Source of the DNA: Myxococcales bacterium
GTDB lineage: Bacteria; Myxococcota_A; Polyangia; Palsa-1104
Assembly (NCBI GenBank): GCA_003170275.1
Contig: PNAM01000081.1
Coordinates: 62,001-126,000 of the forward strand
DNA: 64,000 nucleotides
Direction: 5' to 3'
In this document: one piece after another, positions 18,092-48,529 of the stretch
How the letters are laid out: each line of letters begins with the position of its first letter
Position numbering within the stretch: position 1 is the stretch's first letter
The notes under the pieces: model-generated
Database searches by the model: none
Told to the model about the DNA's origin: nothing
Seen by the model: the letters and a program-made list of their open reading frames with translations, nothing else
Program-made: the position numbers and the translations under genes

Positions 18092-18096
18092 GGGAC

Positions 18097-18585: not shown

Positions 18586-18624
18586 CGGAACTGCCATGCT
18601 CGCGATGCGACGGTGCAGGCGCCT

Positions 18625-24928: not shown

Positions 24929-25111
24929 ATGCACCTGCATACCTGCCCCCGATGCCGCCGCGAGTTCAACGCGCCGATTCGTATCGACGGGATGCAGTGC
25001 CGTCCGTGCATCGAGAAGCGCGACCCGCTACCGCGCGCCGCGTTCGAGGACTCGACGCCGACCAGGCCCATGATCATCGTGCCGCTGCGGGTGCTCGCCG
25101 ATGCCTGGTAG
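24929..25111 (+). CDS. zinc-ribbon mini-protein
   Basis: CPRC...CRPC spacing. Confidence 0.4.
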   Translation: MHLHTCPRCRREFNAPIRIDGMQCRPCIEKRDPLPRAAFEDSTPTRPMIIVPLRVLADAW

Positions 25112-26616: not shown

Positions 26617-26928
26617 TCACCCGCTAAAGCCCCCGTTCCCGGCGAACGCAACCAACTCGAGCGCCACCAGCTCGACGGCCGCCGCCTCGATCTGCCTCCG
26701 ATGATGCTCGACAGTAACTCGGATTATCGCCGCGGCCGACGCGAACCGTTCTTCGCACCACTTCACCACGTCCTCGCGCTCGGCGAGCCGCACCCGCGCG
26801 TCCTCGAGCGCCCAGGTGGCCGAAGCGATATGGGCGCGCCGCTGGTCGGGCGAGCCCGCCGCGCGAGCTAGGGCGAGATGCTTGAGCGCCTGGTCGAGTG
26901 GATCTGGAGGTGGCGGCCGGCGTGGCAT
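26617..26928 (-). CDS. hypothetical small helical protein
   Basis: 103-aa ORF, Ala/Arg-rich. Confidence 0.4.
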   Translation of the reverse strand: MPRRPPPPDPLDQALKHLALARAAGSPDQRRAHIASATWALEDARVRLAEREDVVKWCEERFASAAAIIRVTVEHHRRQIEAAAVELVALELVAFAGNGGFSG

Positions 26929-27068
26929 CGCCTATCGGTCGCCCGCCGGCTCCTCTACGAAGTTCAAGAAAGGCGCGAGCGAACAGTATTTGCCGTTGAC
27001 GAATGAGCTGCAGCCCAGCTTCGCGCCGGCGTTGACGTCCACAAAACGAGTCCCGGGGAGCACGGTGC

Positions 27069-29633: not shown

Positions 29634-29733
29634 TCTCCCTCCTTAATGAATCTCAACGAGCCATGGCCGTGGACCGCGTAACTGACGCTCTATTCTTGGA
29701 TCAAGCAGACCGGGAGAACGTCCCGATGGCCGC

Positions 29734-30396
29734 CTAGGCACCCGAGGGCGCCGCGCGTAGGCGCTGGCAGTCATCTCTGTACTCCGACTGCAGATGCCGC
29801 AGCCGTTGATTGGCACCGGTCAGTTCTCGTGCCCACGTAGCGGTGTTTGTCTGGGGATTGAAAGGGTCGTAGCGGCCATAGCCCCTGCTCCCGTATCTCT
29901 CACTTTCACTCCGAGAACTGGAAAGCATCTTCTCCAACATCGAAACCTGTGCTTCCGCGGCCCGAAGTTGTTTTCGAAGCCGTGCGCACTTCTTGTCGTC
30001 GACGGGAACAGTTTCCGGGAGATTCCCATCTCGCCCCGGTTTGGATGTCTGCAGGCTCGCCGCAGGCACCTCATTCTGCCCCGGCGCGTCGCCAGCCCGT
30101 CCACTTGGTCGGCTGCAGCCCGAGAGCAAATAGACAAGTGCAGCGACCGCGCGCCATGTGGCAAGGTGTGCGGTGGCGATCGTAATACGTGATGACGCAG
30201 GGAAAGCCCACCGCAAGCGTCCGCATCCTACGGCGGCTGGCTTGGAGTTGCGCGCCCAACGCTCGTTGTCGGTCCTCACCATCTCACTCCTCTCGAATCT
30301 GCGTGTTCGCGTTCCTCTCTCAGTGAGGAACGGTTGAAGCCTTCCAATCGGCTGCTTCGTCCTTCTTCGTCTTGACTCGCTGCTGGTAGAGTGCAA
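29734..30396 (-). CDS. hypothetical lipoprotein, true start uncertain
   Basis: Lipobox-like LVYLLSGCSRPSG; true start probably internal to the ORF. Confidence 0.4.
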   Translation of the reverse strand: MHSTSSESRRRRTKQPIGRLQPFLTERGTRTRRFERSEMVRTDNERWARNSKPAAVGCGRLRWAFPASSRITIATAHLATWRAVAALVYLLSGCSRPSGRAGDAPGQNEVPAASLQTSKPGRDGNLPETVPVDDKKCARLRKQLRAAEAQVSMLEKMLSSSRSESERYGSRGYGRYDPFNPQTNTATWARELTGANQRLRHLQSEYRDDCQRLRAAPSGA

Positions 30397-31177
30397 ACAG
30401 CGACTCGGTGAGTCTGCTGCGTGCCACGACGTAGACGTTGACGACGCCCGTGTACGACGATGGGCGAAACCCTCCCGTCTGGTGGCTCACATTCCAGTTC
30501 GCAGCGACGAGGGCCTTCTCGTCGAATCGCGCTGCCGTGAACTCTTCGTAGTCCCAGCCGAAACCATGATCCTCACCGGGGATGCTGACCTCGTTGGCGA
30601 GGCTCGGCAGGTGGCGAAGCTGCTCCTGCCAGGCGGCTTTGACGACCGTCGGGTTGATAGACTGGACGTTCGTGACGCCGTTTCCGACGGAAGATGACGA
30701 CTTCTCGTACGCGATGGAATAGGTCGACGCCACGATCTCCTCGCCGTGCAGGAGGGTCGCAACCGTGCAGGTCGCGTATTCGGGGCACGCGGGATTCTCT
30801 GTCCAGTAGAGAGTGAATCTATCGTCCGGGTGCGCCGCCACCGTCGTCCCCGGCGTCACCGGTGTGCCGGCTCCAACGATCTGAACCACCAGCCCGGAGA
30901 GGGAGTGAAATCGATTCGTAGTGCCTGGCGAGGGGATGCCGTACGCTTGCCCGGCGGTCAGGTGAATCTGCTTCACCTCCCAGTCGCTGCGCCCGGATTT
31001 CAGTTTGCAAGGATACGTCTTGCACTCCCTCTTCGCGTCGGTGACGACGCTTGGCGGGAAGTAGGTCGTCTCGCGCATTTGGTCGACGGGACCCCTGCAG
31101 CCAACCAGACCCCCCATCGCCGCGCAGACGTTAGCGACCGGAAGAGCGATCGATAGCAGCAACGACCAAGCCTTCAT
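30320..31177 (-). CDS. hypothetical lipoprotein
   Basis: MKAWSLLLSIALPVANVCAAMGGLVGCRG signal/lipobox. Confidence 0.6.
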   Translation of the reverse strand: MKAWSLLLSIALPVANVCAAMGGLVGCRGPVDQMRETTYFPPSVVTDAKRECKTYPCKLKSGRSDWEVKQIHLTAGQAYGIPSPGTTNRFHSLSGLVVQIVGAGTPVTPGTTVAAHPDDRFTLYWTENPACPEYATCTVATLLHGEEIVASTYSIAYEKSSSSVGNGVTNVQSINPTVVKAAWQEQLRHLPSLANEVSIPGEDHGFGWDYEEFTAARFDEKALVAANWNVSHQTGGFRPSSYTGVVNVYVVARSRLTESLFALYQQRVKTKKDEAADWKASTVPH

Positions 31178-31387
31178 TGATTCTCCTCCATTTGCTTACC
31201 AACGATGAGGTCCAGCGCATTGTTGGCGACGACTTGGAATCCCGAAGCAGACAAGCTTCCCGAGAACATCCGCCCTCCCGTGGCTGATCGTAGCCTGATT
31301 ACCGCCTATCGCCATCCATAACGGCTGTTACGGATGTCTCTCGAAGGTGGTCTGTTGCCTGTTGCGATCCGACACTCACCGTCGGGC

Positions 31388-31717
31388 ATGGCGAAGAAGA
31401 CACCGTCCCTCCGAAAACGCTTCGGCGACCGCATCCGCGAGTTGCGTCGGCGCAAAGGCTTGTCGCTCGAGGCGCTCGGCGAGCAGGCCAAGCTCAACGA
31501 CAAGTTCATCCAGGCGGTCGAGACCGCGCGCCAGGCGCCAACCATCGATACCATCGAGAAGCTCGCCCGGGGACTCGATGTACCCCTTCGCGAGCTGCTT
31601 ACGTTCGAGGACGAGTCCCCCAAGGCGCTGCGGGCCCGAGCCAAGGAGTTGGTCGGCAAGGCGTCCGACCATGACCTAGCCCGCATCGTCCGGCTGCTCG
31701 AGGCCGCTCTTCATTAG
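31388..31717 (+). CDS. XRE-family HTH transcriptional regulator
   Basis: IRELRRRKGLSLEALGEQAKLNDKFIQAVETARQAPTIDTIEKLARGLDVP. Confidence 0.9.
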   Translation: MAKKTPSLRKRFGDRIRELRRRKGLSLEALGEQAKLNDKFIQAVETARQAPTIDTIEKLARGLDVPLRELLTFEDESPKALRARAKELVGKASDHDLARIVRLLEAALH

Positions 31718-31730
31718 AGGCCGTTCAGGG

Positions 31731-31765
31731 CAAAAAATCGACGAGGCCACGGGCTCCTCGTCGAT
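31731..31765 (-). terminator. Rho-independent terminator at the end of the minus-strand operon
   Basis: Perfect 10-bp stem ATCGACGAGG (31737-31746)/CCTCGTCGAT (31756-31765), followed on the minus strand by TTTTTT. Confidence 0.7.
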
Positions 31766-31785
31766 CGGCGCCGATGCGCCTTAAG

Positions 31786-32124
31786 CTAACGACGGCGACG
31801 CTGTTTCTTCGGCTGCTGCCATCGGGCCGCATCGGTCGGCACCAGCCGCCCGTAGCTGTTCGCGTGCGCGTCGCTGAGGTCCCGAAGAGCAGCGCGTAGC
31901 TCCGCGCCGTCAAGCCGGCGCGCGAGCAAGATAGCCTCCGGTGGTACTGCGACGAGGTATCGCTGCACGTCGGCGAAGCCAACTTCCAACTCGTGGCCGT
32001 AGTTGTAAAGCAAGTCGACGAACAACTTGTCGCCGACCCAGAAGAGCGGCGGGCGCGCGGCGGGAGTCTTGGCGGTGAACCGTTTCATGGCCCACCGCCC
32101 ACGCAGGCGTGGGCGACCTGACAT
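31786..32124 (-). CDS. hypothetical protein, last gene of the operon
   Basis: 112-aa ORF overlapping the end of the RecB-like gene. Confidence 0.5.
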   Translation of the reverse strand: MSGRPRLRGRWAMKRFTAKTPAARPPLFWVGDKLFVDLLYNYGHELEVGFADVQRYLVAVPPEAILLARRLDGAELRAALRDLSDAHANSYGRLVPTDAARWQQPKKQRRRR

Positions 32125-32867
32125 CCCTTACATTGCCAGCCGCGAATCGGATAGAACGCGCCAGCGTCGATGGCGCGCAGCACGCCGATGACCGTTCGCA
32201 GGAAGTCGTCTTCGGCGTGGTCGTCGCGCTCGATGTCCTCGACGTGAACCGTCGGTGACTTCGTCTTGGTGAGGATTTGCAGCCGGAGGCCGACGTCACC
32301 GAGGCCGAGCAACCGCGCCGCGAATCGGTATGCAGTCACCTGGAAATCGTAGCGAAGCTGGTCGTCGGTCCATTTCCGCGCCGCTGTTTTGTGTTCCACC
32401 ACGATCGCCCGCCCTGCTTCACGGACGACCAGGTCGAAAGCCCCGACCAGGCGCTCTTCGATCACCTCGCCCGAGTCGGGGTCGTGAAGCTCGACCGAGA
32501 ACGAGCGCTCGACGTCTTCGACCTCGACGTGCGCAGCCGGCGCTTGAGCGTGGAATGCTCGTAGCATCGCAACGCCGCGGTCGACGACGTCGGAGTCGGC
32601 GTCATCCTCGGCCTGCAGCGGCACGGGGCCAGCACTTGCGTTTGCCCATGCGTCGCGGAAGACCGTCACCAACTCCTCGAGCGACCGCGGCGAGCCGGCC
32701 TGGAGTGCGTGGTAGTGACTCGCGAGCGCGGCGTGGACCGCCGTGCCGAACGCGAGCGCGGCGGGCAGGAAGGCCGGCGCCACGCCGAGCACGTACTTGA
32801 GCTGATACTGACGCGGACACCTCAAGTAGCACTTCACTTGTGAGACGGAGACGTGCAGCCCGGCCAT
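32085..32867 (-). CDS. PD-(D/E)XK nuclease, RecB/Cas4-like
   Basis: SVSQVKCYLRCPRQYQLKYV, GTAVHAAL, GAFDLVVREAGRAIVVEHKT, C-terminal Cys cluster CKGCQVAHAC. Confidence 0.88.
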   Translation of the reverse strand: MAGLHVSVSQVKCYLRCPRQYQLKYVLGVAPAFLPAALAFGTAVHAALASHYHALQAGSPRSLEELVTVFRDAWANASAGPVPLQAEDDADSDVVDRGVAMLRAFHAQAPAAHVEVEDVERSFSVELHDPDSGEVIEERLVGAFDLVVREAGRAIVVEHKTAARKWTDDQLRYDFQVTAYRFAARLLGLGDVGLRLQILTKTKSPTVHVEDIERDDHAEDDFLRTVIGVLRAIDAGAFYPIRGWQCKGCQVAHACVGGGP

Positions 32868-32869
32868 GG

Positions 32870-33568
32870 CTACCCCTCCTCGCCGGGCCGGCGCTCCGCG
32901 TGGCCATTGGTGCGGTTGCCGAGCTTCTCAATGATTTGCGAAGCGAATGCCCGGCTCAAGTACGAGGCTTGCACCCCGAAGTTTTCGACGCAGTAGGACT
33001 GGAACTCGGCGTCGGAGTAGCCCTGGTTGCGGGCGATGGCCCAGATGGCGTTGAGCTGCTTCGACGTGAGACGGTTCCGCTCGGGCGGCGCAGCCGTGCG
33101 CAGCGGCGGCGAGGGGGCGACGGTCGTGCGCGGCGCGGAAGCCGTCGGGGCTGAACGCGCCGGCACCTGCGGCACGGCGACCTCATCGTCGTCGCCGGTG
33201 TAGACGAGGTGACCGCCAACGCCGAGTAGGCGGCAGCAGCGTTTGAGGGAATCGGCTTCGGCCCGCTTGTAGTCGTTGCTCAGGTCCACCATCTGGGCGT
33301 TGTCGCGGCGGCGGGTGACGGTCGCGCCGCCGAGGCCCGTCTTGACGACGCCCGCGGCGGTCAGCTTTCCCTCGATGAGGAGCTGGTCGTCGACCTGCTC
33401 CCGGTGCGTGACTTCGAAGGACCACGCGCCGTTGAAGGCCTCGTTCAGCTTCGAAACGTAATGAATCACCTCCACGTATATGAAGGTCTTTCCGCCCGCC
33501 CCCTGCCGCTGCTTGAGCAGCTCGGGCGGGAACGGACGCTCGAGGATCTTGCGGATGGAATCGTCCAT
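32870..33568 (-). CDS. Rad52/Rad22-like single-strand annealing protein
   Basis: LERPFPPELLKQRQG...GKTFIYVEVIHYVSKLNEAFNGAWSFEV...SNDYKRAEADSLKRCCRLLGVG. Confidence 0.82.
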   Translation of the reverse strand: MDDSIRKILERPFPPELLKQRQGAGGKTFIYVEVIHYVSKLNEAFNGAWSFEVTHREQVDDQLLIEGKLTAAGVVKTGLGGATVTRRRDNAQMVDLSNDYKRAEADSLKRCCRLLGVGGHLVYTGDDDEVAVPQVPARSAPTASAPRTTVAPSPPLRTAAPPERNRLTSKQLNAIWAIARNQGYSDAEFQSYCVENFGVQASYLSRAFASQIIEKLGNRTNGHAERRPGEEG

Positions 33569-33609
33569 GTGACTTCTCCCTCGGGCTCAATGAGCCCTGA
33601 AAATGCGAG

Positions 33610-33641
33610 AGCCCCGCCGGCATGACTTCACCGACGGGGCT
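33610..33641. other. intercistronic hairpin
   Basis: AGCCCCG-C-CGG ... CCG-A-CGGGGCT inverted repeat. Confidence 0.6.
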
Positions 33642-33828
33642 ACGCGGGTTGACTTGCTGCTACTTGCTTCTCGCTTTTCTTCTGTTGGAACCGATCGCCT
33701 CGACGAGAGCCGTCAGAATCAAAACAGCGATGTTGGCGGCGAGGGATGAACGGATAGCGCGGGTGAACCAGAACAAGATGAACCACCTCCCTTCCTGGAC
33801 TGGCTGTCCGAGGTGCAGAAGGAGGCGG

Positions 33829-35091
33829 TCAGCGGGCGAAGAGCTGCTCGGCCGCCTTGTCGTCGATGCGGTCGAGGTCGACGACCGCCTGGGCCTCATC
33901 GCACCAGGGCGCGAGCGCGCCCTGGTTGATGCCGATGCCGAACCCGAGAATCGTGACGCCGAGCGCCGCTGCTCTGGTTCTCAGCTCCGGCGCCCGGTCG
34001 ATTGCACTGCCTCCATCAGTGATCAGCACCAGATCGGCCTTTCGGAGCGCTCCGGGGTTCTGCTCGATCACGCTCAAGCCCCGGTCGATCACGTTGGCGA
34101 TGTCTGTGCCGCCGCCGCAGCTCAGGAACAGCTCGGCCGCGGGGAACCTCCCGCCAAGCTTCACGATCACCTCTTGCTTCACGATGTCGTCGAAGCCGAG
34201 AAGTGCGAACGGCCGACGCTGGCGCTGCGCGATGTCGAGCAGCGCCAACGCGACCGCGGTCGCCCAAATATCGGGCGGGCCGTCCATGCTGCCGCTCTTG
34301 TCCAAGCAAACCACGAGCGGACCCTTGCCCAACGTCTCGGTGCCGGTGAGGGCGTACTGGAGACACCGGCGCTCGGACAAGTCACGCAGCAGCGCCAGCC
34401 TCAGCTTCGGGTGGACCAGCTTGACCAGCTCGGCAGGCAGGAGCCGACCAAGGTCAGCCCCCTGCTCTACGTCGGTGATCTCGTCGGCGCCGTGCCTCAC
34501 CTTCTGACGCTGCTTCATTGCGGCGATGCGCTTGAACCGACCCGCCAAGAGAGCGATCCGTTTCAGGCGATGATCATCGCGGATGAGTCGAGCCAGCTCA
34601 CGCGCCGCCGAGCACGGGCGCATCTCGCCATTCACGGTTCCGGTGCCGGGGAGCCGGCCGAAGGTGACCTGCTCGAGGCCCTCGGCCGACTCCCGAAGCT
34701 CCTCGACGGCGGCCGATGCGTGTTCGCAGCCGGATCGGATCGTCCGGCGCAGCGCCGCGGTGTCGACCTCCTGCATATGCGGCTGCAGCTCGGCCATCAG
34801 GGTCTCGACTGCGGTCGCCGCGGCATCGGCATCACCGCGGCATTCCGTGGACAAACGTCCAAAGTCCGGTAGCTGATCGCACGCTGCGTGGACCTTCTCT
34901 GCCCAGGTGCGCAGCTCGGCGTCCTGGTCGTGCTCGGGCAGCCGTTCCAGTTCGCCGGCGTAGAGCCTCTCGAACAGCTCGTCTTGGAAACGAAGCTCGC
35001 GCGGGTCTGAACGGTCGACCTGGTCGAGGCCCCGAGCGGCCCTGTGCAGATAGATGCTCCACCGAGGCACATCATTAATGATGCGCTTCAT
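33829..35091 (-). CDS. VWA-domain protein (CoxE/ViaA-like)
   Basis: VVCLDKSGSMDG MIDAS motif, LVLITDGGS; ATGA overlap with the MoxR gene. Confidence 0.85.
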   Translation of the reverse strand: MKRIINDVPRWSIYLHRAARGLDQVDRSDPRELRFQDELFERLYAGELERLPEHDQDAELRTWAEKVHAACDQLPDFGRLSTECRGDADAAATAVETLMAELQPHMQEVDTAALRRTIRSGCEHASAAVEELRESAEGLEQVTFGRLPGTGTVNGEMRPCSAARELARLIRDDHRLKRIALLAGRFKRIAAMKQRQKVRHGADEITDVEQGADLGRLLPAELVKLVHPKLRLALLRDLSERRCLQYALTGTETLGKGPLVVCLDKSGSMDGPPDIWATAVALALLDIAQRQRRPFALLGFDDIVKQEVIVKLGGRFPAAELFLSCGGGTDIANVIDRGLSVIEQNPGALRKADLVLITDGGSAIDRAPELRTRAAALGVTILGFGIGINQGALAPWCDEAQAVVDLDRIDDKAAEQLFAR

Positions 35092-36224
35092 CGCAGCGCC
35101 CGCAGGCCAAGGCCCGCCGACACCGCCCTCGCCAGCTCAGCGTGCATCTGCTGAATCTCCGTCTGGGCGTCGGCGATGACCGTTTTCGCACGCCGCCCGC
35201 CAGACCGCGCCAGCTCGGTGAGCTTCTTCTGCATAGAGTCGAACTCGCCGATCGACTGGGCCGCCTGGGCGATGTAGCTCTTGCGGTCACCGCTGGCGAG
35301 GCCGGAGACCTTCTGGGCGGTCTCCCTCGCAGCGTCGAGGATCTCGGCGGCCTGGGCGCTGCTCGGATCACAGAGCTTGCCGACGAGGCGCGCAACCTTC
35401 GCGCGCTCCTTCGGTTCCCTCCACAGGGAGTCGACCAGGATGGCCAGGTCCTCGGGCGTGGTCTGCTTCTCGCCGGCCATGTACGCCCACGACTGGACGA
35501 TCTTCAGACTCTTCTTCCAGCGCCTGTCGCTGGCGATGATGCCCTCGGCACGGCAGGCGTCCCTGATGGAGATGAGCGCGTCGACCGTGTCGTCGGTGAC
35601 CTTGACCTTGGCGGCCTCGCCCTGCGCCTTCTTCAGGTCGGCCATGGTCAGCTTGACCGTCGTCACCGGATCCGGCGCCAACAGCACCGTGCGGAGGTTC
35701 GACGGCTGGAGCAGGTAGCCGATGTCGAACCGGAGCAGGAACCTGTCGAACAGCGCTTCCAGCTCTTTGCCCTCCGGCAGCTCGTTACTTGCACCGAAAA
35801 GTGAAATCAGCGGAGCCGGAGCGGGCGAGCCTCCGTTGTGGAAGATGCGCTCGTTGATGAGGGCGAGGAGGCTATTGAGCACGGCCGAGTTGCTCTTGAA
35901 CACCTCGTCCACGAATCCGAAATGGCACTCCGGTAGCCGCCCCGTCGTTATGCGGATGAACCGGTCCTGCTCCAGCGCCATCAGGCTGATGGGGCCGAAG
36001 ACCTCGTCGTTGGTCGTGAACTTGTTGAGCAGGATCTCCCAGTAGGAGCCGCCGAACGCCTGGGCGATGGCTCGCACGAGCGCGCTCTTCGCGGTGCCCG
36101 GCGGGCCAAGCAGAAGCACGTGCTCTGCGGCGAGCACGGCGCACAGGGCGCCACTGATCACGTCTTTCCGCTCGGGAAATCGCCCCGACAAATCCGCATG
36201 GAGAAGCTGAAGCTGCTGGTTCAT
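35088..36224 (-). CDS. MoxR/RavA-type AAA+ ATPase
   Basis: Walker A LLGPPGTAKSALVRAIA, Walker B-like FGFVDEVFKSN, sensor GASNELPEG. Confidence 0.9.
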   Translation of the reverse strand: MNQQLQLLHADLSGRFPERKDVISGALCAVLAAEHVLLLGPPGTAKSALVRAIAQAFGGSYWEILLNKFTTNDEVFGPISLMALEQDRFIRITTGRLPECHFGFVDEVFKSNSAVLNSLLALINERIFHNGGSPAPAPLISLFGASNELPEGKELEALFDRFLLRFDIGYLLQPSNLRTVLLAPDPVTTVKLTMADLKKAQGEAAKVKVTDDTVDALISIRDACRAEGIIASDRRWKKSLKIVQSWAYMAGEKQTTPEDLAILVDSLWREPKERAKVARLVGKLCDPSSAQAAEILDAARETAQKVSGLASGDRKSYIAQAAQSIGEFDSMQKKLTELARSGGRRAKTVIADAQTEIQQMHAELARAVSAGLGLRALR

Positions 36225-36242
36225 GGAACCTCCTGGAATGAA

Positions 36243-36279
36243 GAGAGGCGGCCAGGGACACGTTCCCCGACCGCCTCTC
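36243..36279. other. intercistronic hairpin
   Basis: Perfect 9-bp arms GAGAGGCGG (36243-36251)/CCGCCTCTC (36271-36279). Confidence 0.6.
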
Positions 36280-36295
36280 GATTGGTGGATAGCGG

Positions 36296-37171
36296 CTACG
36301 CCGCCGATTTCTGATTGAGCATTTCCTCGACGGTGGCCGAGAGACTGTCGAGCTGCCGATCGAGATCGGTGACCTCCACAGCGAGCACCTCTCGGTAGAG
36401 CCGCGCCCGCCCTCTGAGCGCCTCGAACGCGTCGAACCTCCGCACCAACGTGCTGGCGCGGTCGGGCGGCGCCTGCACGAAGGTGGCGATCTCACCCTTG
36501 AGCGCTTCCAACTCGGCTTCGATCGAGCCCTGCGCGATCTCACCCAGCGTGCGTTCCGCCTCGGCACTCTTGCTGACGGGCAAGAGGTAGACTCGCGAGC
36601 TGCCGATCTTCTCGATCGCCGACTGGAGCCGGCGGAGCTTTTCGGCGAACGGCGCGGGAACCCAATAGACCCCGCCGCCCTCCCTCAGCGTCACCGCCGC
36701 GAAGCTGTGAAGCGCTTTGACGAGCGCCCGCCGCACGTCATCGGGCGTTTGGGTCGTGCGTAGCGTGCGGAAGTTGGTCTCGACGGCGGCGACCAGGTCA
36801 TGCCTGGGTGCGTCGCTCGTTAGTCGCTCGCGCTGGCGATCGAGATGGATGCGCGCTTCCTGCTGGTAGGTCAGGTCGCCGTCTCCACCGCGGTGCTCGC
36901 GCACGACGGCGAAGACGATTTCGGACTCGTCTTCTTTGCCAAGACGGATGAGCCGATCACGCTGGCCCACCTGCGCCTCGCGGACGGCGAGCTTTAGCGC
37001 TTTTTCGGCGGTGGGCGGATCAGGCAGGAGTGCGGCGTCAAGCGCCGCGCCGGACCAGAGGGACTCGAGCGCGGCACGGTCGATGCGGGCATCCCCGAGC
37101 GACCAGAAGATGAGGTCGCCCAGGTGAGCGCCGCCGTTCTTGAGCGCGTTCTTGATGAGGTCGATGGACAT
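36296..37171 (-). CDS. hypothetical coiled-coil protein (possibly DUF6744-like)
   Basis: MSIDLIKNALKNGGAHLGDLIFWSLGDARID...; 292 aa. Confidence 0.5.
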   Translation of the reverse strand: MSIDLIKNALKNGGAHLGDLIFWSLGDARIDRAALESLWSGAALDAALLPDPPTAEKALKLAVREAQVGQRDRLIRLGKEDESEIVFAVVREHRGGDGDLTYQQEARIHLDRQRERLTSDAPRHDLVAAVETNFRTLRTTQTPDDVRRALVKALHSFAAVTLREGGGVYWVPAPFAEKLRRLQSAIEKIGSSRVYLLPVSKSAEAERTLGEIAQGSIEAELEALKGEIATFVQAPPDRASTLVRRFDAFEALRGRARLYREVLAVEVTDLDRQLDSLSATVEEMLNQKSAA

Positions 37172-37257
37172 TGGCACCTCCACCTGCTGGAAGCAGGGGC
37201 GAGTTGAAGGGTGGTGGATGCAGGTCCTGGCCGGCGATTGCCGACCGGCGGCGGTCA

Positions 37258-37485
37258 CTACTTCTTGCGCTTGGGCGTGTTCGGCACGCCCTTGTAGATG
37301 CGCTCCGCCCACGAGAACTTCTGGCAGCCGCAAAAGCGGGACTTCTTGCATCGGCCGTGGCCGAACGCCGCGCCGCGAAGTGCGCTCTGGTGCTCGCTGC
37401 GGAGATGGCCGCAGCGGCACTTTTCGTCGATGACGATGGTTCCGTCCGGCAGCGTCGCCGGGAACGGATTGTTCGGGTTTTGCAT
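37258..37485 (-). CDS. small Cys/His-rich protein
   Basis: CRCGHLRSEH...GRCKKSRFCGC. Confidence 0.5.
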   Translation of the reverse strand: MQNPNNPFPATLPDGTIVIDEKCRCGHLRSEHQSALRGAAFGHGRCKKSRFCGCQKFSWAERIYKGVPNTPKRKK

Positions 37486-37533
37486 GGCATGAACCTCCGG
37501 GTGCGGGCGCGAAGCGATCAACCGGCGATCAGG

Positions 37534-37953
37534 TCAATCGTTCGAGGAGAAGAGATCGAGCGGAAGCGACTCCGTGGTGACGCAGATGTCGACGTGCTTC
37601 GCAAGGCAGGTCCAGTACCCGCGATCGTCCCTCACCACCATCTTGAGGCACTCCACGGCCTGCCGCTGTTCTCCCTTGATGACGACGTCCTCGGGGAGCG
37701 GCACATAGCGGTCCTGGTCAAGCCCATCGAGCATGGGGCCCGAGAGATCGTCGTCGATGTTGGAGATGAAGTTCGGCGTGCCGTCCCAGAAGTAGCCCTC
37801 CAGAAACTCTGGGTCTTGCTCCTTCACTCCCGCGCACAACTTCACGCGGCTGAGTACGTTCTTGGTGAGCGCGGCGTCGACTTCGACGATGCAGAGGTCA
37901 CAGTCGGCGTTGAAGTGCTCGTCGCTGCTGCTGGTGTGGATGATGAGGCGCAC
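37534..37953 (-). CDS. hypothetical protein
   Basis: 139-aa ORF in the tight minus-strand operon. Confidence 0.55.
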   Translation of the reverse strand: MRLIIHTSSSDEHFNADCDLCIVEVDAALTKNVLSRVKLCAGVKEQDPEFLEGYFWDGTPNFISNIDDDLSGPMLDGLDQDRYVPLPEDVVIKGEQRQAVECLKMVVRDDRGYWTCLAKHVDICVTTESLPLDLFSSND

Positions 37954-37956
37954 GGG

Positions 37957-39060
37957 TCACAGCCTCATCGGCATGATCACGGCGACCTGTCCCTCCCCGA
38001 TGTCGATGCGGATGGGGCCGAACGCGTCGTTGAAGCGGGCGATGACAGCGTCGCTACAGCCACCGAGGGCGTCGGCAAGATAGCCGGCGTCGATGCCGAT
38101 CACGCTGTCGGGGCCGTCATGCGTGGTGCTGACGACCGGAACTGTTCTGGAGGTGGAGCCGTCGTCACCATCGCGCTCGAGCTTGATAGCTCCGTTGACG
38201 GTGATGCGCACGCCGCGGCTGCTGCCCTTGGGCTTCAGCATGCGGTTGATCGCGTGGAGCAGGATCTCGCGGTCGACCTCGGTCGAGAACGCCTCGGTGC
38301 CCTCGGCGGGTATGACTTGGCGAAAAGGCGGATAATGCAGATCGGTCATTGCCGCGGCCTCGATCTCCCACTGGACGTCGCCGGTGGCGCAGCGAAAGCG
38401 GACGAAGTCCTTCGCTCGCTCCGCCGATACCTCCCCAGACTTCGGCAGCACCCGGAGCAGCGTTGCGATGGCGCTGCCCGGCAGCAGCGCCGGTCCGCCG
38501 CTGATGCCCGGCATTTTGATGAGGTGAAGCCGGTGGCCATCGAGCCCCACGATCTCGTCGGGCGTGAACATGACGCCGGTCATCGCCGGCCGGGTCGTGT
38601 CGGTGCCGACGGCCATGGAGATCCACTTCAGTGCATCGGCGAGCTGCGGCGCGGACCAGGTGCCGGCGGCGAGCCAATCGCGGAGGGCGAGTTTGTCGCC
38701 AGGACGCAGCGGGAAACCTTCCGCCAAGGCGGAGGTCAGCGTGACCAACGCGCCGTCGTCGGCCACCACGACCTTGCCGTCCTCCACCGGCTGGAATTCG
38801 ATCGGTGACTTCTGGTCGGTCGCGTTCGATGGCTTCACAAAATCGAGCAGCGACTTGCCGGGGAGGAGACACGCCGCGAGCGTGCCGTCGCAGGGGACGG
38901 TGGCGCGCATGTACGTCGTGAGATCAGTGGCGTCGAGCACGAGCTGCTGCCCGTCGGCTTCCAGACGAACGTGGCCGAGCGCAGGGATTGAGGGCTGGTG
39001 GTCGATTACGCGGACGAGCGCTTTCAGCGCGCTGAAAAGCGCGCCCTTCTGGACGATCAT
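37957..39060 (-). CDS. dnaN-like: DNA polymerase III beta subunit (sliding clamp)-like
   Basis: Three-repeat clamp layout: LARVIDHQPSIPALGHVRLEADGQQLVLDATDLTTYMRATV; FTPDEIVGLDGHRLHLIKMP; C-terminal VAVIMPMRL. Confidence 0.85.
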   Translation of the reverse strand: MIVQKGALFSALKALVRVIDHQPSIPALGHVRLEADGQQLVLDATDLTTYMRATVPCDGTLAACLLPGKSLLDFVKPSNATDQKSPIEFQPVEDGKVVVADDGALVTLTSALAEGFPLRPGDKLALRDWLAAGTWSAPQLADALKWISMAVGTDTTRPAMTGVMFTPDEIVGLDGHRLHLIKMPGISGGPALLPGSAIATLLRVLPKSGEVSAERAKDFVRFRCATGDVQWEIEAAAMTDLHYPPFRQVIPAEGTEAFSTEVDREILLHAINRMLKPKGSSRGVRITVNGAIKLERDGDDGSTSRTVPVVSTTHDGPDSVIGIDAGYLADALGGCSDAVIARFNDAFGPIRIDIGEGQVAVIMPMRL

Positions 39061-39099
39061 GGTTGCCTCCGTGGTTGGTTTTAGGGGTCGAGGGTTCTG

Positions 39100-39417
39100 T
39101 CAGCGGTTCTTTGCGAGGCAGGACTTGCAGAGAAGACCGGCGGGGCCGGTCTTGCCGATCTGGTCGGGGGCGACGTCGTCGGCGCAGAAGTCGCAGGTGG
39201 GGCAGTCGACCTCGGTCAGGTGAGCAGCGAACGTGACGATGAACCAGCGTCCGTCGAGAGTCTGGAACTGCTCCTGGCCTGTGTGGTCGTGATGGTAGAG
39301 GTCGAGGTGCTCGAGGCTGCTGACCGCTTCGTCGAGGAGGTCGCCGAGCGTCACCCCGGGCTCGCCGAGGTTGACGACGGCCAGTTGCTCGCGGGGGTCG
39401 GGCTCGCCAGCGCTCAC
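39100..39417 (-). CDS. hypothetical protein with C-terminal Cys pairs
   Basis: CPTCDFC...LLCKSC zinc-binding-like end. Confidence 0.5.
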   Translation of the reverse strand: MSAGEPDPREQLAVVNLGEPGVTLGDLLDEAVSSLEHLDLYHHDHTGQEQFQTLDGRWFIVTFAAHLTEVDCPTCDFCADDVAPDQIGKTGPAGLLCKSCLAKNR

Positions 39418-39938
39418 GGCGCACCGTTGGTGATGACGAACGGTTCGAGCGGTGGGATCTCCGGCCCCATCACCTCGTCGAGCGCGGCCAGGGCGCCGCG
39501 AACCTTCTCGGGCGATCTCTCGGCTAGGGCCGCGCGCAGAAACTCGCGTATCCGCTCCAGCTCGGCGAGCCGGACGGTCGGGTCACCGTTCTGCGTGGCG
39601 GTGTGCTCAACCTCGCCCGTGCCAGAACGGAACGAAGCGGCCAAGCCATCGAACTCGTACCGGGCGTCAGATTGCCGGTCGAACGCGATGCTGTTCTTGA
39701 CCAGCCACTCTTCCAGGTCGGCGAACGCTCCGTAGAGCGCCTGTTCGTCGTATATGTGCAGGAGCTTGGTGTCGGGGTCGACTGCGCCGGTGAGATGGTC
39801 GACGGTTTCCGGAGTAAAGAGCGCACCGCCCCACTCGAGGGAGACGCCGGCGGCGGCGATGACCTCGTTGAGGGCCGGGACCAGAGCGCGAGGAACGGGA
39901 CCGCCGATTTGGATCGTGCCGGGGAAGTGGTCGGCCAT
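39414..39938 (-). CDS. hypothetical protein, first gene of the operon
   Basis: 174-aa ORF, stop overlaps the downstream start. Confidence 0.55.
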   Translation of the reverse strand: MADHFPGTIQIGGPVPRALVPALNEVIAAAGVSLEWGGALFTPETVDHLTGAVDPDTKLLHIYDEQALYGAFADLEEWLVKNSIAFDRQSDARYEFDGLAASFRSGTGEVEHTATQNGDPTVRLAELERIREFLRAALAERSPEKVRGALAALDEVMGPEIPPLEPFVITNGAP

Positions 39939-40253
39939 TTGAAATCTCCTGGTTGTTGGTTGGCGTGTCGCCGGTCGCGCCGGCTACGTGAAGAGCTGCT
40001 GATGGGGGCGCGACTATCGCGGGCCCGATAGACGGGCTACCGGGACAGCAGCAGTGGGTTCAAGGAGCAAACCGTGCCGGCGAGGCGGAAGTCAGGGCGC
40101 CAGTCTTCCCATATGGTCTTGTACCAAAATCAGTGGGCATTCCAAGACTCGCCACCAACGGTGATGTAGGACTGCAGGCGCCCGCGCTCACGAGCGGCGA
40201 GACGCGAAAGATCCCTCAGGCCGCGATGCGCTACTCTCACTGAAGAAGACGGG

Positions 40254-41045: not shown

Positions 41046-41127
41046 GAACCGTGACCGGGATCAGCAGTTGATGATGATGGTGAACCCGGCAACGAAGAGC
41101 GAGTAGTCGCGCAAGCACGAGGCTGTC

Positions 41128-41532: not shown

Positions 41533-42073
41533 GCGTGCCTTGGGTCGCCCTTTACGGATGGGCCCAAGGTAGGCTGGTCTCCTTATTTCTTCAATGGTGA
41601 CTCAGTAACGCCGAAAAATCACCCGCGAGCATCGACACTTGCGCCAGCTCCTCCGAAGTCGACGCGCCGCCTGTATTAGATCGTCCATGAAGAGTGAAGT
41701 TCGCCCCGGCACCGATTCCCCCGGCTACGTCACCTGCACGAAGTGCGGCCAGGCCGTCTTGATTTCGATCGGTGACACCGAAGCGCGCTGCTCAAACTGC
41801 CAGAGCTGGGTGCGCCGCTGATCGCCGCCGCGGCGCCCCCGATGGTGTGCCTGCTCTGCCCGATCGAGCTGGAGGGCTCCGTGGAGCCACTCTGCTGCAT
41901 CTGCCATCAAGACAACTACGTCGTGCTGGTCGCCGGCGTGTGGAACGTGTTTTCGAACGAGGGGAGGCTGCACGCCAGCTCCACCGGCGAGCTGAACGAC
42001 GCCGGGATAGTGTGCCTCGCCCGCGAACGTCGGCGCGTCATGCGCTTCCGGCGATGACGCTGCGAGTTTTCCG

Positions 42074-43324
42074 ATGAAGGTCCGCATCCACCGCGGCGCG
42101 GCCGAGATCGGCGGCAACTGTATCGAACTGGAGGCGCAGGGCACGCGCATCTTGCTCGACCTTGGGCGGCCCATCAGTGCTGCGCTCGATGAGAACGTGC
42201 CCCTGCCCAACGTGTCCGGCCTCGAGCGCGGCGGTGATCCGTCGCTCGCCGGCGTCGTGCTGTCACATCCGCACATAGATCACTACGGCCTCATCCCGCA
42301 GATGGCGCCGACGGTTCCCCTGTACATGGGTGAGGCCGGGTACCGAATCCTCAGCGAGGCGGCCTTCTTCACCGGCGCAGCGGTGCTGCCGAGGCCCATA
42401 GGCTTCTTGCGTCACCGCGAACCATTCGAGATCGGCCCCTTCCGCATCACGCCGTATCTCAACGACCACTCGGCATTCGACGCATATTCGCTGCTCGTCG
42501 AGTCCGACGGGCTCCGGCTGTTCTACACCGGCGACATCCGTGCGCACGGGCGCAAAGCGGGCATCTTCGAGGAGCTACTGCGCCGTCCACCCGAGAACGT
42601 CGACGTCCTTCTCATGGAGGGCACCCAGGTCCGGGCCAACTCCGACGGCACAGAGCGCGGCCCGTCGGAGCGCGACGTCGAGAATGACTGCGTCGGGACA
42701 TTCCGCGAGACAACCGGCGCGGTGCTGGCGCTGTTCTCACCCCAGAACATCGATCGGCTGGTCACGTTCTACCGCGCTGCGCTTCGGTCAGGTCGTGATC
42801 TGGTGATGGACCTATACTCGGCGACCATCGCGGCTGCGACGGGCTTGGCGACGATCCCGCAGGCCCAGTGGGATAGCGTACGCGTCTACCTGCCGCGGTC
42901 GCAGCGGTCACGGGTAATCCGTGAGCGCGCCTTCCATCACACCGACGCTGTCCGGGCGCGGCGCATCTACCCGGAGGAGCTGGCGGCACGCCGCGGTGAG
43001 CTGGTCCTGATGTTCCGCGAGAGCATGGCGCGCGAGTTTGAAGTCGCTGGCTGCCTCGACGGCGCGCACGCCATCTGGTCGATGTGGCCGGGCTACCTGC
43101 AGCAGCCGTCGGGTGAGCGGCTGCGAAGCACGCTCGATAGACTCGGCATCCCGCTGACCATCCACCACGCGTCCGGGCACGCGTTCGTGCCGGACCTTCA
43201 GCGGTTGGTGTCGGCGCTCGCACCGACAAGCGTAGTGCCGATCCACAGCTTTGCGGGCGACCGCTTTGGGGAGTTCTTCCCGCGCGTCGAGCGGCAGCCA
43301 GACGGGGCGTGGTGGCCGGTGTAG
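42074..43324 (+). CDS. MBL-fold metallo-hydrolase, RNase J/beta-CASP-like
   Basis: EIGGNCIELEAQGTRILLDLG, VVLSHPHIDHYGLIP, LNDHSAFDAYS, FYTGDIR, C-terminal HASGHA. Confidence 0.85.
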   Translation: MKVRIHRGAAEIGGNCIELEAQGTRILLDLGRPISAALDENVPLPNVSGLERGGDPSLAGVVLSHPHIDHYGLIPQMAPTVPLYMGEAGYRILSEAAFFTGAAVLPRPIGFLRHREPFEIGPFRITPYLNDHSAFDAYSLLVESDGLRLFYTGDIRAHGRKAGIFEELLRRPPENVDVLLMEGTQVRANSDGTERGPSERDVENDCVGTFRETTGAVLALFSPQNIDRLVTFYRAALRSGRDLVMDLYSATIAAATGLATIPQAQWDSVRVYLPRSQRSRVIRERAFHHTDAVRARRIYPEELAARRGELVLMFRESMAREFEVAGCLDGAHAIWSMWPGYLQQPSGERLRSTLDRLGIPLTIHHASGHAFVPDLQRLVSALAPTSVVPIHSFAGDRFGEFFPRVERQPDGAWWPV

Positions 43325-43344
43325 ACTCGCCCCTGGAGGTGCAA

Positions 43345-44517
43345 ATGGCGCTGAACGACCAGGGGGCCCCTTTCGAGTTCGCAGAGCAGCCGCGCAGCGT
43401 GGTCCAGCTACGCGACGACGACGGGGTACACTGGTATCACCTCAGCCACAGCAAGAAGACATGGAAGCTGCGCTCCTATGCAGACGGGAAGGAGACTGTC
43501 ACAACATACCCTCCCCAACTCGCCGACCTAGCCGAGGACGTGCGCGTGGTCCGGCAGTTGCCGTTTGCTGACGTGACGAAGTTGACCGGGATTGCCACAA
43601 ACGTTCCTTGCACCGACGCCGCCGCGTGGCAACGAATCTTGTCCGCGTTGCCCGATAATCCGCCTGTGGGAGGGGCGCCCGGCGGAGTGGAAAAACCAGC
43701 ACCGACTGGAAAGGGACCGCAACAACCGTTCCCGCGATCATTCGAGCTGTTCCACCTGTACAAGACGCTGAGACGTGCCTCGAGCGATCTCCAACAACGC
43801 GTTGGTGAACACTTCGCCGAGTATCCCCAGCGCCTCGCGCTGCTATTTCGCGACAGCGTCCGAAGTTTCGCAGCGTGCGGCAAGCGAGATGAGGGGTTCG
43901 TGTCGTCGAACCGTCTCGAGGAAGCACCGCTTCCCTGGAGAGGCTTCGTGGAAGGAACCAATGATCTTACCGCCGCACTCCAGCATGCCGAGGTTGGTAC
44001 GGTCACTGATGATCCGGCCCTGAATTTCCGACTGGTCCAGCGCGAGATCGTCCCAACGCGAGCACTACGAGCAGGTGCTCGGGGCGGCGGAGAGGTCGAC
44101 TGGCTCCTCGTCAACAACGCGAGCAAGCTTCCTGTCGTGGCCGAGGTCAAGATTCGCAACGACACGAATACATTCTTCGGACTCATCCAAGCGCTCATGT
44201 ACGGATCTACTCTTTCAACGGGCAGCCAGATGGAGCGCCTCAAGGCGGCCTACCCCGGACAGTTCGAGTTTCCGCTCGATCGCGAAGAGGGCGCGGAGGT
44301 TCCGACCGTGGAGCTGTACGTCGTGCTCCATGATACGAAGGGGGACGATCGGTTTAGCGAACTGGCGAAGCGCATCGCCGAGGGCCTGATGAAGAACTCG
44401 GCGGTGGCCGCGCACGTTCGACAGATCGCGTGCCTAGACACGGTCATCAACGATGGGCGACTTACCTTCAGGAAGCGATTTCTAGCGCAGAGGACCGAGG
44501 GGTTCATAGACGAGTAG
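43345..44517 (+). CDS. PD-(D/E)XK-type putative nuclease
   Basis: C-terminal GGEVDWLLVNNASKLPVVAEVKIRNDTNTFFGLIQALMY; SD-like GGAGG before ATG 43345. Confidence 0.6.
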   Translation: MALNDQGAPFEFAEQPRSVVQLRDDDGVHWYHLSHSKKTWKLRSYADGKETVTTYPPQLADLAEDVRVVRQLPFADVTKLTGIATNVPCTDAAAWQRILSALPDNPPVGGAPGGVEKPAPTGKGPQQPFPRSFELFHLYKTLRRASSDLQQRVGEHFAEYPQRLALLFRDSVRSFAACGKRDEGFVSSNRLEEAPLPWRGFVEGTNDLTAALQHAEVGTVTDDPALNFRLVQREIVPTRALRAGARGGGEVDWLLVNNASKLPVVAEVKIRNDTNTFFGLIQALMYGSTLSTGSQMERLKAAYPGQFEFPLDREEGAEVPTVELYVVLHDTKGDDRFSELAKRIAEGLMKNSAVAAHVRQIACLDTVINDGRLTFRKRFLAQRTEGFIDE

Positions 44518-44534
44518 ACGGCAACGGAGGCCAC

Positions 44535-45320
44535 ATGGAGACATTTACTTCTGAGATCGTCGAGCGCCTGAAGGCGTACGTCTATCGTATCGAGGACCCC
44601 AGGACCGGCCGCACCTTCTACGTCGGCAAGGGAAACGGAGACCGAGCCTTCGCCCATGCGCGACAGGCGCTCATCGGTGAAGACGGCCTGCGCTACGAAC
44701 GAATTCGCGAAATCGTCACCGCTGGACTCACACCACGCGTCATCATCCATCGCCACGGGCTCGACGACGCAGTGGCCCATGAGGTCGAATCTGCGCTGAT
44801 CGACGCCTATGCGCACGAGGACCTCTCCAACGAGGTTCGCGGTCACGATAGCGAGCGCGGCGTAATGACGCCTGGGCAAATCGTAGAACTCTACGGAGCC
44901 GCTCCAGCGCAAATCCCGGTGCCGGCGATCGTGATCAAGATCGAGCAGCAGTGGCACCAGGGCCTCTCCGCCGAGGAATTGTACGAGCGGACGCGCCGCT
45001 ACTGGGTCTGCAACCCCGAGAGTCGTCCAATCCCGCCCCAGATCGCGATAAGCGTCGCACGGGGAATCGTTCGGGAGGTCTTCGACATCGAGAAATGGGA
45101 GGTCTACCCGGACATGGCCGCGGAGGTGATCGATCCGACCCGTCTTCCTGCCAAGAAGAAGGGCAAGGCGATGGTTCGCCGGGGATTCCTCGGACGAGTG
45201 ACCGCCGACGCGGATCTGCGAGCGTCTCTCTTGGGCACGAGCGTCCGCGAGATCCCGTTCGGTAGCGGCAGCCCTTTCGCATACGCGGGGCCGACCGCGC
45301 GCAGCAACGCGGGGCGGTAA
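44535..45320 (+). CDS. GIY-YIG nuclease family protein (LEM-3-like)
   Basis: YVYRIEDPRTGRTFYVGKGNGDRAFAHAR...AHEVESALIDAY. Confidence 0.85.
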   Translation: METFTSEIVERLKAYVYRIEDPRTGRTFYVGKGNGDRAFAHARQALIGEDGLRYERIREIVTAGLTPRVIIHRHGLDDAVAHEVESALIDAYAHEDLSNEVRGHDSERGVMTPGQIVELYGAAPAQIPVPAIVIKIEQQWHQGLSAEELYERTRRYWVCNPESRPIPPQIAISVARGIVREVFDIEKWEVYPDMAAEVIDPTRLPAKKKGKAMVRRGFLGRVTADADLRASLLGTSVREIPFGSGSPFAYAGPTARSNAGR

Positions 45321-45379
45321 TCTCACTGGACGGTTCGAGCTTCTCGCCAACCCCGTTCGCTCGCGCGCTCACTGCGCAC

Positions 45380-46288
45380 ATGTGCGAATGGCGCCGCCGT
45401 CATGATGGGTCCAGGCACCCCATCTTCACGAATTGGTCCGACGGCATCTTCCCCGCCTTCCGCGACGACGCGGTGCTCGCCGTTGCAGAGGACGAGGTTC
45501 GCCTGCACAAGTACGCCGCGGCGGTCACCAGCTCGCAGGCGTTTGCCCTGAACTTGTTCATTCCGTGGCGGCGCGGGTCGCGGGCCGCGCTCGATGCTCG
45601 GCTGACCAACGCTCTCGGAGAGCCGATCACGATCGACCGGCTGACGTTCGAATGGGTTCCAGCGGGTGGCCTGCTCGGTGAGATCGACGCCGATCGCCCG
45701 CGGCCCGACGAGCCAGCTACGGCCGTGGATATTGTGCTCTGGGGAGGCGCCCGCGATGGCGCCCGTGTCGCACTGCTGCTCGAGGTCAAGCTCGGCGAAG
45801 GCGGGTTCACGACCTGCGGAGGCCGAGACAGTCCTTCAAACCGGCGCCCGGACGTGTGTGCCTCCGCCGACGTGTTTTTCCGTGACCCGAGTGCCTGTTA
45901 CCTACAGCATCCTCGGGGGAAGACTCGCGACCGGAGGTATTGGGACATCTTCGCCAGTTCCAGCGGCAGCGTGCGCTCGGCGTTCCCCGGCGCCAGCAAC
46001 GATGGACCTTGCCCCTTTGCCGGCCAGAACCAACAGCCAATGCGAAACCTCGCCATCTCCCACGCGCTCGTGCAGGAGAAGATCGTCGACCGCGCCTGGT
46101 TCGGATTGTGCGCGCACGACGACAACCCGGACGTTGCAGCCCAATGGGCGGCGTGGCGATCGCTGCTACCCAGCACGGACGCAGCCCCCGTCATACGCGC
46201 CTCCGAGATCCTCGCCGCTGGGTGCGACGCCGGCCACCAAGTATGGGCTCATTGGATGGCGGACCGATACCGCCTGTCGCTGCCATGA
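45380..46288 (+). CDS. putative restriction endonuclease (PGN_0703-like, PD-(D/E)XK)
   Basis: TAVDIVLW...VALLLEVKLGEGGFTTCGGRDSPSNRRPDVC; Cys-rich; ATGA overlap with the next gene. Confidence 0.55.
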   Translation: MCEWRRRHDGSRHPIFTNWSDGIFPAFRDDAVLAVAEDEVRLHKYAAAVTSSQAFALNLFIPWRRGSRAALDARLTNALGEPITIDRLTFEWVPAGGLLGEIDADRPRPDEPATAVDIVLWGGARDGARVALLLEVKLGEGGFTTCGGRDSPSNRRPDVCASADVFFRDPSACYLQHPRGKTRDRRYWDIFASSSGSVRSAFPGASNDGPCPFAGQNQQPMRNLAISHALVQEKIVDRAWFGLCAHDDNPDVAAQWAAWRSLLPSTDAAPVIRASEILAAGCDAGHQVWAHWMADRYRLSLP

Positions 46289-47211
46289 TCCGCTACGCTC
46301 GCGCTCCATCGCCGGCTTTCCTTGCGCTTCTTGCGCCCGGTGGTTTTCTGTCCACGCTGCTCACCCGTCGGGAGGTCGCCGGGGTCGCGCTCGATGTGCA
46401 ATTCCGCGAGCATGACCATCTCCACGTCTACTGCGGGCTGACCCGGCTCGTGAACGCTTCCCTTACCGGCGGCCGGCTCCGAGTCACGGCCCATAAGACG
46501 TACAGCGTGCAGCCGTGCGCGGCCGATCTGTTCCGCGTCTGGCCCATCGACGAGAGCGGTTTCGCCGCCGCAGTCGAGCGCTACTTTGCCGGGGTTCAGG
46601 TTAACCCGACTCATGTGCTCAGCGAAGGGGCCGTGCAGGCGGCGTGGGCGGCCGTCCGCCATCCTTGGACGCCGTTCGATCGCGAAGCCGTGCTCGGCTA
46701 CGTCAACACCGCGGCCCAGACCGCCGGTCGCGCTTTTCCCAGAGTTGTGGCCGCCCGCGCCGAGCTGGAACGCCTTCGGACGGCCGGGCGGTGGGCGCCG
46801 ATGCCCAAGGGCAAGGTCGGTGCGGAGTTGGACCAACTCGCCGTCGACCCGGAAGGTCGTCTCGTTCTGCTCGAGCTGAAAGACGCCGCTGCGTCGCCCT
46901 CCTCGGTCTACTACTCGCCGCTCCAACTGCTGCAGTACGTCCTCGAATGGGCTGTGGCGTTCGACGTCGTGCGTGATCAACTCCGCGCGCTGATCGAGGC
47001 CCGCAAGGCAGTTGGGCTCTCGCCAGTCGACATGCCCGATCTAGGCCGCGGCCTTCGCCCCGTCGTTGGATTCGGAGCGGATCTGCGCAGCGCGGAAGTG
47101 CGCGCTAGATTCGACGAGGTCCGCGATGTTGTGAACCGTCATCTCCCTGCGGGCGCCGCGCCGATGGAGGCCTGGGCGATGGAGCGCTCGACCCCGGTTC
47201 GGATCGGCTGA
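46285..47211 (+). CDS. PD-(D/E)XK-type partner protein
   Basis: GAELDQLAVDPEGRLVLLELKDAAASPSSVYYSPLQLLQYVLEW; translationally coupled to the upstream gene. Confidence 0.55.
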   Translation: MIRYARAPSPAFLALLAPGGFLSTLLTRREVAGVALDVQFREHDHLHVYCGLTRLVNASLTGGRLRVTAHKTYSVQPCAADLFRVWPIDESGFAAAVERYFAGVQVNPTHVLSEGAVQAAWAAVRHPWTPFDREAVLGYVNTAAQTAGRAFPRVVAARAELERLRTAGRWAPMPKGKVGAELDQLAVDPEGRLVLLELKDAAASPSSVYYSPLQLLQYVLEWAVAFDVVRDQLRALIEARKAVGLSPVDMPDLGRGLRPVVGFGADLRSAEVRARFDEVRDVVNRHLPAGAAPMEAWAMERSTPVRIG

Positions 47212-48058: not shown

Positions 48059-48109
48059 TTCTGACCTTCTATCACACTGCTGCATCCGTGTTCGGATACG
48101 GGAGGCCCA

Positions 48110-48529
48110 ATGAAGAGCCATCGCAAGGAGTTGTGGTTCGAAACCAAGACGCGCATGGCGTTCGTGAACATCACGCTCGACGTGCAGGCGGCGCTCGCCG
48201 AGAGCGGCGTACGCGAGGGCCTCTGCTTGGTCAACGCCATGCACATCACCGCGTCGGTGTTCATCAACGACGACGAGCCCGGCCTGCACAAGGACTATGC
48301 GCGATGGCTCGAAGAGCTGGCGCCGAACGAGCCGACCTCGCGCTATCAGCACAACAACACCGGCGAGGACAACGGTGACGCGCACATCAAGCGGCAGGTG
48401 ATGGGCCGCGAGGTGGTGGTGGCCATCACCGAGGGCAAGCTCGACTTCGGCCCGTGGGAGCAGATTTTCTACGGCGAATTCGACGGCCGCCGGAAAAAGC
48501 GAGTGCTTGTAAAGATCATCGGCGAGTGA
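48110..48529 (+). CDS. YjbQ/UPF0047 family protein
   Basis: [36 protein letters not shown]...[52 protein letters not shown]. Confidence 0.92.

Follow-up and report, generated by a model that had tools for sequence, protein, structure and literature searches.

Do five nuclease-like genes that lie head to tail on one bacterial contig form a single system, or are they separate systems that have come to be neighbors? The question is raised by a stretch of 64,000 nucleotides from a Myxococcales bacterium (contig PNAM01000081.1 of assembly GCA_003170275.1, positions 62,001 to 126,000; hereafter the window, whose coordinates are used throughout), in which five open reading frames, g1 to g5, occupy positions 42074-47211, all on the + strand. 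An earlier note had taken them for a candidate undescribed defense or DNA-processing system, and its account of the layout holds exactly: the frames are co-directional, the intergenic gaps measure 20, 17, and 59 bp, a 4-nt ATGA overlap joins g4 and g5 at 46285, and all of the catalytic-type motifs quoted for the five proteins are present in the translations. Our analyses show that the locus consists of three side-by-side units, with g3, a gene of the CMoRE family, standing between two two-gene modules, g1-g2 and g4-g5. The "five-gene run" is a description of adjacency only; g1 to g5 do not travel together. We favor, with a probability of roughly 0.55, the explanation that the stretch is a stack of three independent defense units lodged in a cargo slot, each pair being a restriction-like combination of a core protein and an exchangeable PD-(D/E)XK partner, and g3 being of the CMoRE family.

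The middle gene, g3 (44535-45320, + strand), encodes a GIY-YIG nuclease with known counterparts. Its product matched the PADLOC model PD-T4-3 (7.4e-42) over residues 2-239 of 261, the Pfam family LEM-3_GIY-YIG (2.9e-9), and the PDB entries 9u75 (7.5e-29) and 9u7u (2.4e-26, residues 3-224). These two structures represent CMoRE, a single-gene type IV restriction enzyme with a GIYxY-YIG motif that degrades DNA bearing 5-hydroxymethylcytosine or its glucosylated form, as described in a 2026 paper (PMC12923530). The GIYxY-YIG domain is present in g3, where KAYVYR...TFYVGKG aligns with 9u75 and 9u7u and the Y-x-Y...Y core is kept; as judged by sequence similarity, the C-terminal modification-sensing domain falls inside both the PADLOC and the 9u7u matches. 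The likeness to CMoRE thus extends to a nearly full-length profile match, PDB homologs, the Y-x-Y...YVG core, and the single-gene format. By contrast, identity to the plasmid-borne Escherichia coli relatives is roughly 37% at most, and the loop that matches the inhibitory acidic loop of CMoRE consists only of GEDG, the acidic stretch of the E. coli proteins being longer. On these matches, g3 is an already known kind of anti-phage gene, PD-T4-3/CMoRE, and, if it acts as its studied relatives do, it would cut hydroxymethylcytosine-bearing phage DNA independently of its neighbors.

The same genome holds a second copy of g3 (G000:C58:127942), 95% identical, in a paralogous element on contig C58 that is without g1, g2, g4, and g5; g3 is accordingly a single-component unit, as CMoRE is. 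The two elements have the same backbone, which in the window spans 26657-39960 on the - strand (78-91% identity in blocks by blastn) and by Pfam encodes a Rad52-like annealing protein, a PDDEXK_1 exonuclease, VWA and MoxR proteins, DUF6744, and a DNA polymerase beta clamp. They also have the same right flank, a UPF0047 gene (48098-48525, + strand; 88-91% by blastn, Pfam UPF0047) that is interrupted in the paralogous element. Between backbone and flank, only g3 is common to both, besides a 50-bp stretch at 41058-41107. The mosaic mobile element that the earlier note had suspected is supported, and the g1-g5 stretch occupies the variable, swappable cargo slot of this integrative element. The g3 block that the elements share, delimited by blastn and a base-by-base view, is 884 bp long (44536-45419, + strand, 93% identity). 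It starts at the g3 start codon and stops 13 codons inside g4, its 3' end supplying the start and first residues of g4. Because the block reaches into g4 and because g4 homologs have an N-terminus that differs from that of the window g4, these first residues are probably a recombination scar. Since g3 is the only shared cargo gene and the other four genes are absent from C58, g3 appears to move alone, as an 884-bp unit. A third, cut-down copy of g3 lies elsewhere in the genome, on contig C106 (locus L059, approximately 9815-9937).

These observations bear directly on the idea, put forward in the earlier note, that g1 to g5 make up one five-component defense or DNA-processing system. The head-to-tail order and the small gaps speak for it, but no other locus examined has all five genes, g3 occurs with different cargo in the paralogous element and is single-component elsewhere (PMC12923530), homologs of g1 and g4 sit with partners of their own in different genomes, and a g3 block that ends inside g4 looks like the product of recombination. 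When gene order was compared across genomes, conservation was found for g1 with its partner and for g4 with its partner, not for the five genes in a row. We give the single-system idea scarcely any credence.

The first module begins with g1 (42074-43324, + strand), a protein of 416 amino acids that by its sequence is a short form of RNase J/beta-CASP-type metallo-beta-lactamase (MBL). It matched the Pfam families Lactamase_B_2 (5.8e-11) and RMMBL (1.7e-4), and in a PDB search it resembled 2az4 (EF2904) and RNase J. The RNase J metal ligands (HxHxDH, H, D, H) are all in place: H65, H67, D69, H70, H132, D154, and H369 are invariant in 15 relatives (alignment A3), and H391 is nearly so. SGHA and VPIH motifs and an insertion of beta-CASP length are further points of likeness to RNase J/beta-CASP ribonucleases. 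However, g1 scored only 47.3 bits against the curated RNase J model TIGR00649, whose cut-off is 400, it falls short of the full length of about 550 amino acids, and its family has PD-(D/E)XK neighbors, whereas canonical RNase J has none. Cas14, the beta-CASP effector of type VII CRISPR systems, belongs to the same nuclease superfamily, but the similarity of g1 to it is weak and partial (36.8 bits, the cut-off being 800). No CRISPR locus came to attention, no specific search for one having been made.

Relatives of g1 were collected from genomes of the same phylum, plasmids, and viral contigs, giving 24 loci with the window included. At 18 of these, a gene with a PD-(D/E)XK motif lies directly adjacent on the same strand, in many cases overlapping the g1-family gene by 4 nt, and the count rises to 22 of 24 when near neighbors are included. 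The four near-neighbor cases comprise a partner of known type that is cut by the contig end (L068), two partners that lie one gene away (L050 and L062), and one that is convergent (L081). A strict automatic motif test detected a partner at 13 of the 24 loci, compared with none of eight canonical RNase J loci and 4 of 204 other genes. In the window, this position is taken by g2 (43345-44517, + strand, with a GTG at 43309 as a possible alternative start), which follows g1 after the 20-bp gap and matches the partners elsewhere in its placement, making g1-g2 one instance of a recurrent pairing of an MBL with a PD-(D/E)XK-type partner. Cargo slots do gather genes, and the locus could on that account be an island in which nuclease genes unrelated to one another have accumulated by chance, none of the pairs being functional. 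The pairings nevertheless turn up in different genomes, on plasmids, and in viral contigs, far more often than the background level, and we regard a chance accumulation as very improbable. The partners themselves vary: they form several highly divergent families with no phmmer similarity between them, and the g1 tree, several deep forks of which are weak, has the same partner family in clades that lie apart from each other.

Some smaller features accompany the MBL genes. On a plasmid of Sphingomonas sp. NIC1 (L054), there is an unlisted frame with a PD-(D/E)XK motif (6983-8215) that overlaps the MBL gene at the start of the latter; it probably represents a partner gene that was missed or is frameshifted, and it was counted with caution. 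Three alphaproteobacterial plasmids encode, beside the MBL gene, a small conserved protein that starts with GIFW (L050, 7582-7950; L051, 7609-7989; L054, 9268-9621). In the window, g1 is immediately preceded on its own strand by two short Cys-rich, zinc-ribbon-like frames (41688-42058).

The core of the second module, g4 (45380-46288, + strand), is by its Pfam scores a member of the PGN_0703-like restriction endonucleases, matching REase-ARP (PF22558) at 3.3e-15, with 56.9 bits against a gathering threshold of 27, and PDDEXK_13 (PF20796) at 2.2e-14, also above cut-off. This PD-(D/E)XK protein has four invariant cysteines (C146, C160, C173, and C211), and its catalytic residues, D117 and E135-V-K137, are conserved (alignment A4). 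A partner gene lies directly downstream in each of the nine genomes that have a close g4 (that of the window, G105, G088, G132, G030, G258, G349, G253, and G309), one copy in G105 being truncated by a contig end. Here, too, the partner is exchanged: it is a protein that we call partner B in seven of the genomes, and it is of the g5 type in the window (g5, 46285-47211, + strand) and in G253. In the latter (L104), g4 and g5 are 45% and 49% identical to the window pair, and the 4-nt overlap is retained. A g5-type gene also follows a more distant g4-like gene (28%) on two contigs of metagenome-assembled genomes (MAGs; L075/L078 and L079), and one MAG contig carries a degraded remnant of g4 and g5 (L074/L080). 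That contig is labelled Klebsiella pneumoniae, probably in error, and the genome set places it with the phylum of the window. Since no Pfam model is matched by g5 or by partner B, they are probably not the "ARP" whose association is recorded in the name REase-ARP. When the g5 alignment was set against partner B in a profile comparison, the match was weak (probability 14%), and for this reason we do not claim homology between the two. The plasmid search found none of g4, g5, and partner B, and the viral-contig search found none of g2, g4, g5, and partner B. A distant g4-like gene at L008 (1267-2298, reversed) lies between type I restriction subunits that resemble HsdS and HsdR.

The partners were assigned to the PD-(D/E)XK nucleases by their motifs. 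The pattern D-ExK-(Q/E)xxxY occurs in 22 of the 31 partner proteins of both modules, compared with three entries among 261 background genes (one gene appearing twice) and 0.7% of shuffled sequences. The g2 motif, D252...E267-V-K269...QxxxY, matches this pattern. In g5 and its relatives, a Q in the position after D is all that prevents a match; the g5 motif, D183...E197-L-K199...Q214xxxY218, was read directly and is invariant in the alignment with L075 and found also in L104. Profile searches added little for these proteins. There was no Pfam family match for g2, g5, or partner B, no PDB match for g2, and no result from PDB profile searches with g5, partner B, or the g4 alignment; PADLOC gave no match for g1, g2, or g4, and for g5 a weak match to PDC-S11 (E 0.0055) that covers 32 residues, not most of the protein. 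The nuclease-like character that the earlier note had ascribed to all five proteins stands for g1, g3, and g4 through family matches, with PDB counterparts for g1 and g3, and is indicated for g2 and g5 by motif.

Components are shared between the two modules. Partner B occurs with MBL cores at L066, L068, and L069 as well as with g4 cores elsewhere, the L069 protein matching a g4 partner at 1.6e-43. A small protein is encoded upstream of the MBL gene in L063, and a protein similar to it (30% identity, 1e-11) is encoded upstream of g4 in L104; likewise, the gene for a membrane-type protein lies after the MBL pair in L060 and before a distant g4-like gene in L009 (46%, 4e-55). Because one partner family and two accessory genes are common to the modules of the g1 type and of the g4 type, these look like variations on a single theme that recurs across genomes, a constant core nuclease with an exchangeable PD-(D/E)XK-type partner, the place beside that partner apparently being filled by a beta-CASP enzyme in one type and by a PGN_0703-type protein in the other. 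As a tentative view, a single undescribed, widespread class of bacterial immune system, with a core that accepts interchangeable PD-(D/E)XK partners, may have g1-g2 and g4-g5 as two of its branches. Partner swapping in toxin-antitoxin systems offers a comparable modularity, but the undescribed class would have a nuclease on both sides.

In open-licence PubMed Central text we found no description of MBL or PGN_0703 cores with PD-(D/E)XK partners, and no text on PGN_0703, PDDEXK_13, or REase-ARP. The nearest relation was the trypsin-MBL module of Hachiman, AVAST, Lamassu, and DRT systems, in which a ComEC-like MBL nuclease is paired with a trypsin-like protease (PMC12799240). Both cases involve an MBL nuclease that is repeatedly paired with a second enzyme, in a defense setting for the trypsin-MBL module. 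The known module, however, joins a ComEC-like nuclease to a protease, whereas an RNase J-like g1 is joined to a PD-(D/E)XK-type protein here, and no protease was found among the neighboring genes scanned beside g1. The novelty claimed for the locus does not extend to g3 and attaches to at least two apparently undescribed pairings. The combination of core and PD-(D/E)XK partner is apparently an undescribed, new form of nuclease-based defense, with a fair chance of being a new class.

Several homologous loci lie among restriction genes. In L103, g4 and partner B are encoded directly downstream of, and on the same strand as, Vsr, a GHKL ATPase of a PADLOC type II restriction family, and a C5-methylase, and in L073 the g4 pair adjoins a C5-methylase, a GHKL ATPase, a Z1 protein, and PDC-S41. 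MBL pairs are found near methylases and a IIG enzyme (L051), near McrC, as annotated (L056), and near a PDC-S02 nuclease (L062). The window pairs differ from these C5-methylase/GHKL/Vsr/Z1 settings in having no adjacent methylase. This neighborhood supports a restriction-like role, short of proof. The defense role that the earlier note had suggested is likewise supported as likely.

The main rival takes the pairs for toxin-antitoxin or abortive infection systems, in which one nuclease is toxic to host RNA or DNA, is checked by its partner, and kills the infected cell. An overlapping two-gene format, a plasmid or mobile-element setting, and an RNase J-like core would all suit such a system, but with catalytic motifs in both members neither resembles a plain antitoxin, and the methylase association fits self/non-self restriction instead. 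We consider this rival unlikely, though it deserves to be taken seriously. Another proposal is that the pairs serve the mobile elements themselves, either by processing or repairing the DNA or RNA of the element or by helping to maintain plasmids. The beta-CASP enzymes include DNA-repair nucleases, g1-type modules occur on plasmids and in viral contigs, and the MBL pair of L050 lies next to UvrD and PD-(D/E)XK helicase-nuclease genes. The modules, however, reside in swapped cargo, outside the backbone common to both elements, and their sporadic distribution and restriction neighbors also speak against such a service, which we judge rather improbable.

A restriction-like defense role is the best explanation of the pairs. 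The partner would bind its target through a variable N-terminal region and cut DNA, the core nuclease would form a complex with it and add a second cutting activity, and the two together may destroy invading nucleic acid, whether phage or plasmid. Several findings weigh against this reading. Two g1-family loci, L055, which lies near DUF262 proteins, and L061, have no PD-(D/E)XK neighbor; the curated count of 18 in 24 was made after the pattern had been seen and includes related loci (L064/L065, L067/L077, and L068/L069). g2 has a single, weak relative that is without the ExK motif. The PD-(D/E)XK fold of g2, g5, and the other partners is read from motifs only: the AlphaFold model of g2, built with no relatives, was unusable, with a predicted local distance difference test (pLDDT) score of 38, and that of g5, built with one relative, reached 59 and gave only noise in a Foldseek search of the PDB, leaving both folds unconfirmed. 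The downstream partner is confined to the close g4 clade, more distant members of PF22558/PF20796 being mostly alone. Finally, no methylase was found at 40-49 kb of the window, where a classical type II restriction-modification system would have one adjacent; the only C5-methylase found in the 8.2-Mb host genome (16871-18091) is about 24 kb from the pairs.

What had been noted as one five-gene system resolves into separate modules that can each be tested directly; one is already understood. Should the pairing prove functional, it would represent a family of two-nuclease systems missing from current defense libraries, and it would supply a simple search rule for many more of them, namely to look beside the constant core. 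Partner exchange between two unrelated core nucleases, if true, would reveal a way in which systems of this kind acquire new targets.

Other features of the window and of the paralogous element were noted in passing. The DNA polymerase III beta-clamp paralog of the backbone lies at 37957-39060, and a large serine recombinase is encoded at 23198-24940. The cargo of the paralogous element on C58 includes a 515-amino acid protein (L058, 10457-12004) with an RNEHSHG motif that resembles those of HEPN nucleases; it had no match in Pfam or PADLOC. The C5-cytosine methylase gene of the window belongs to a second restriction-like cluster (16871-19761), in which it is accompanied by an overlapping Vsr endonuclease gene and a convergent gene (18625-19761) for a 378-amino acid protein with a PD-(D/E)XK motif.

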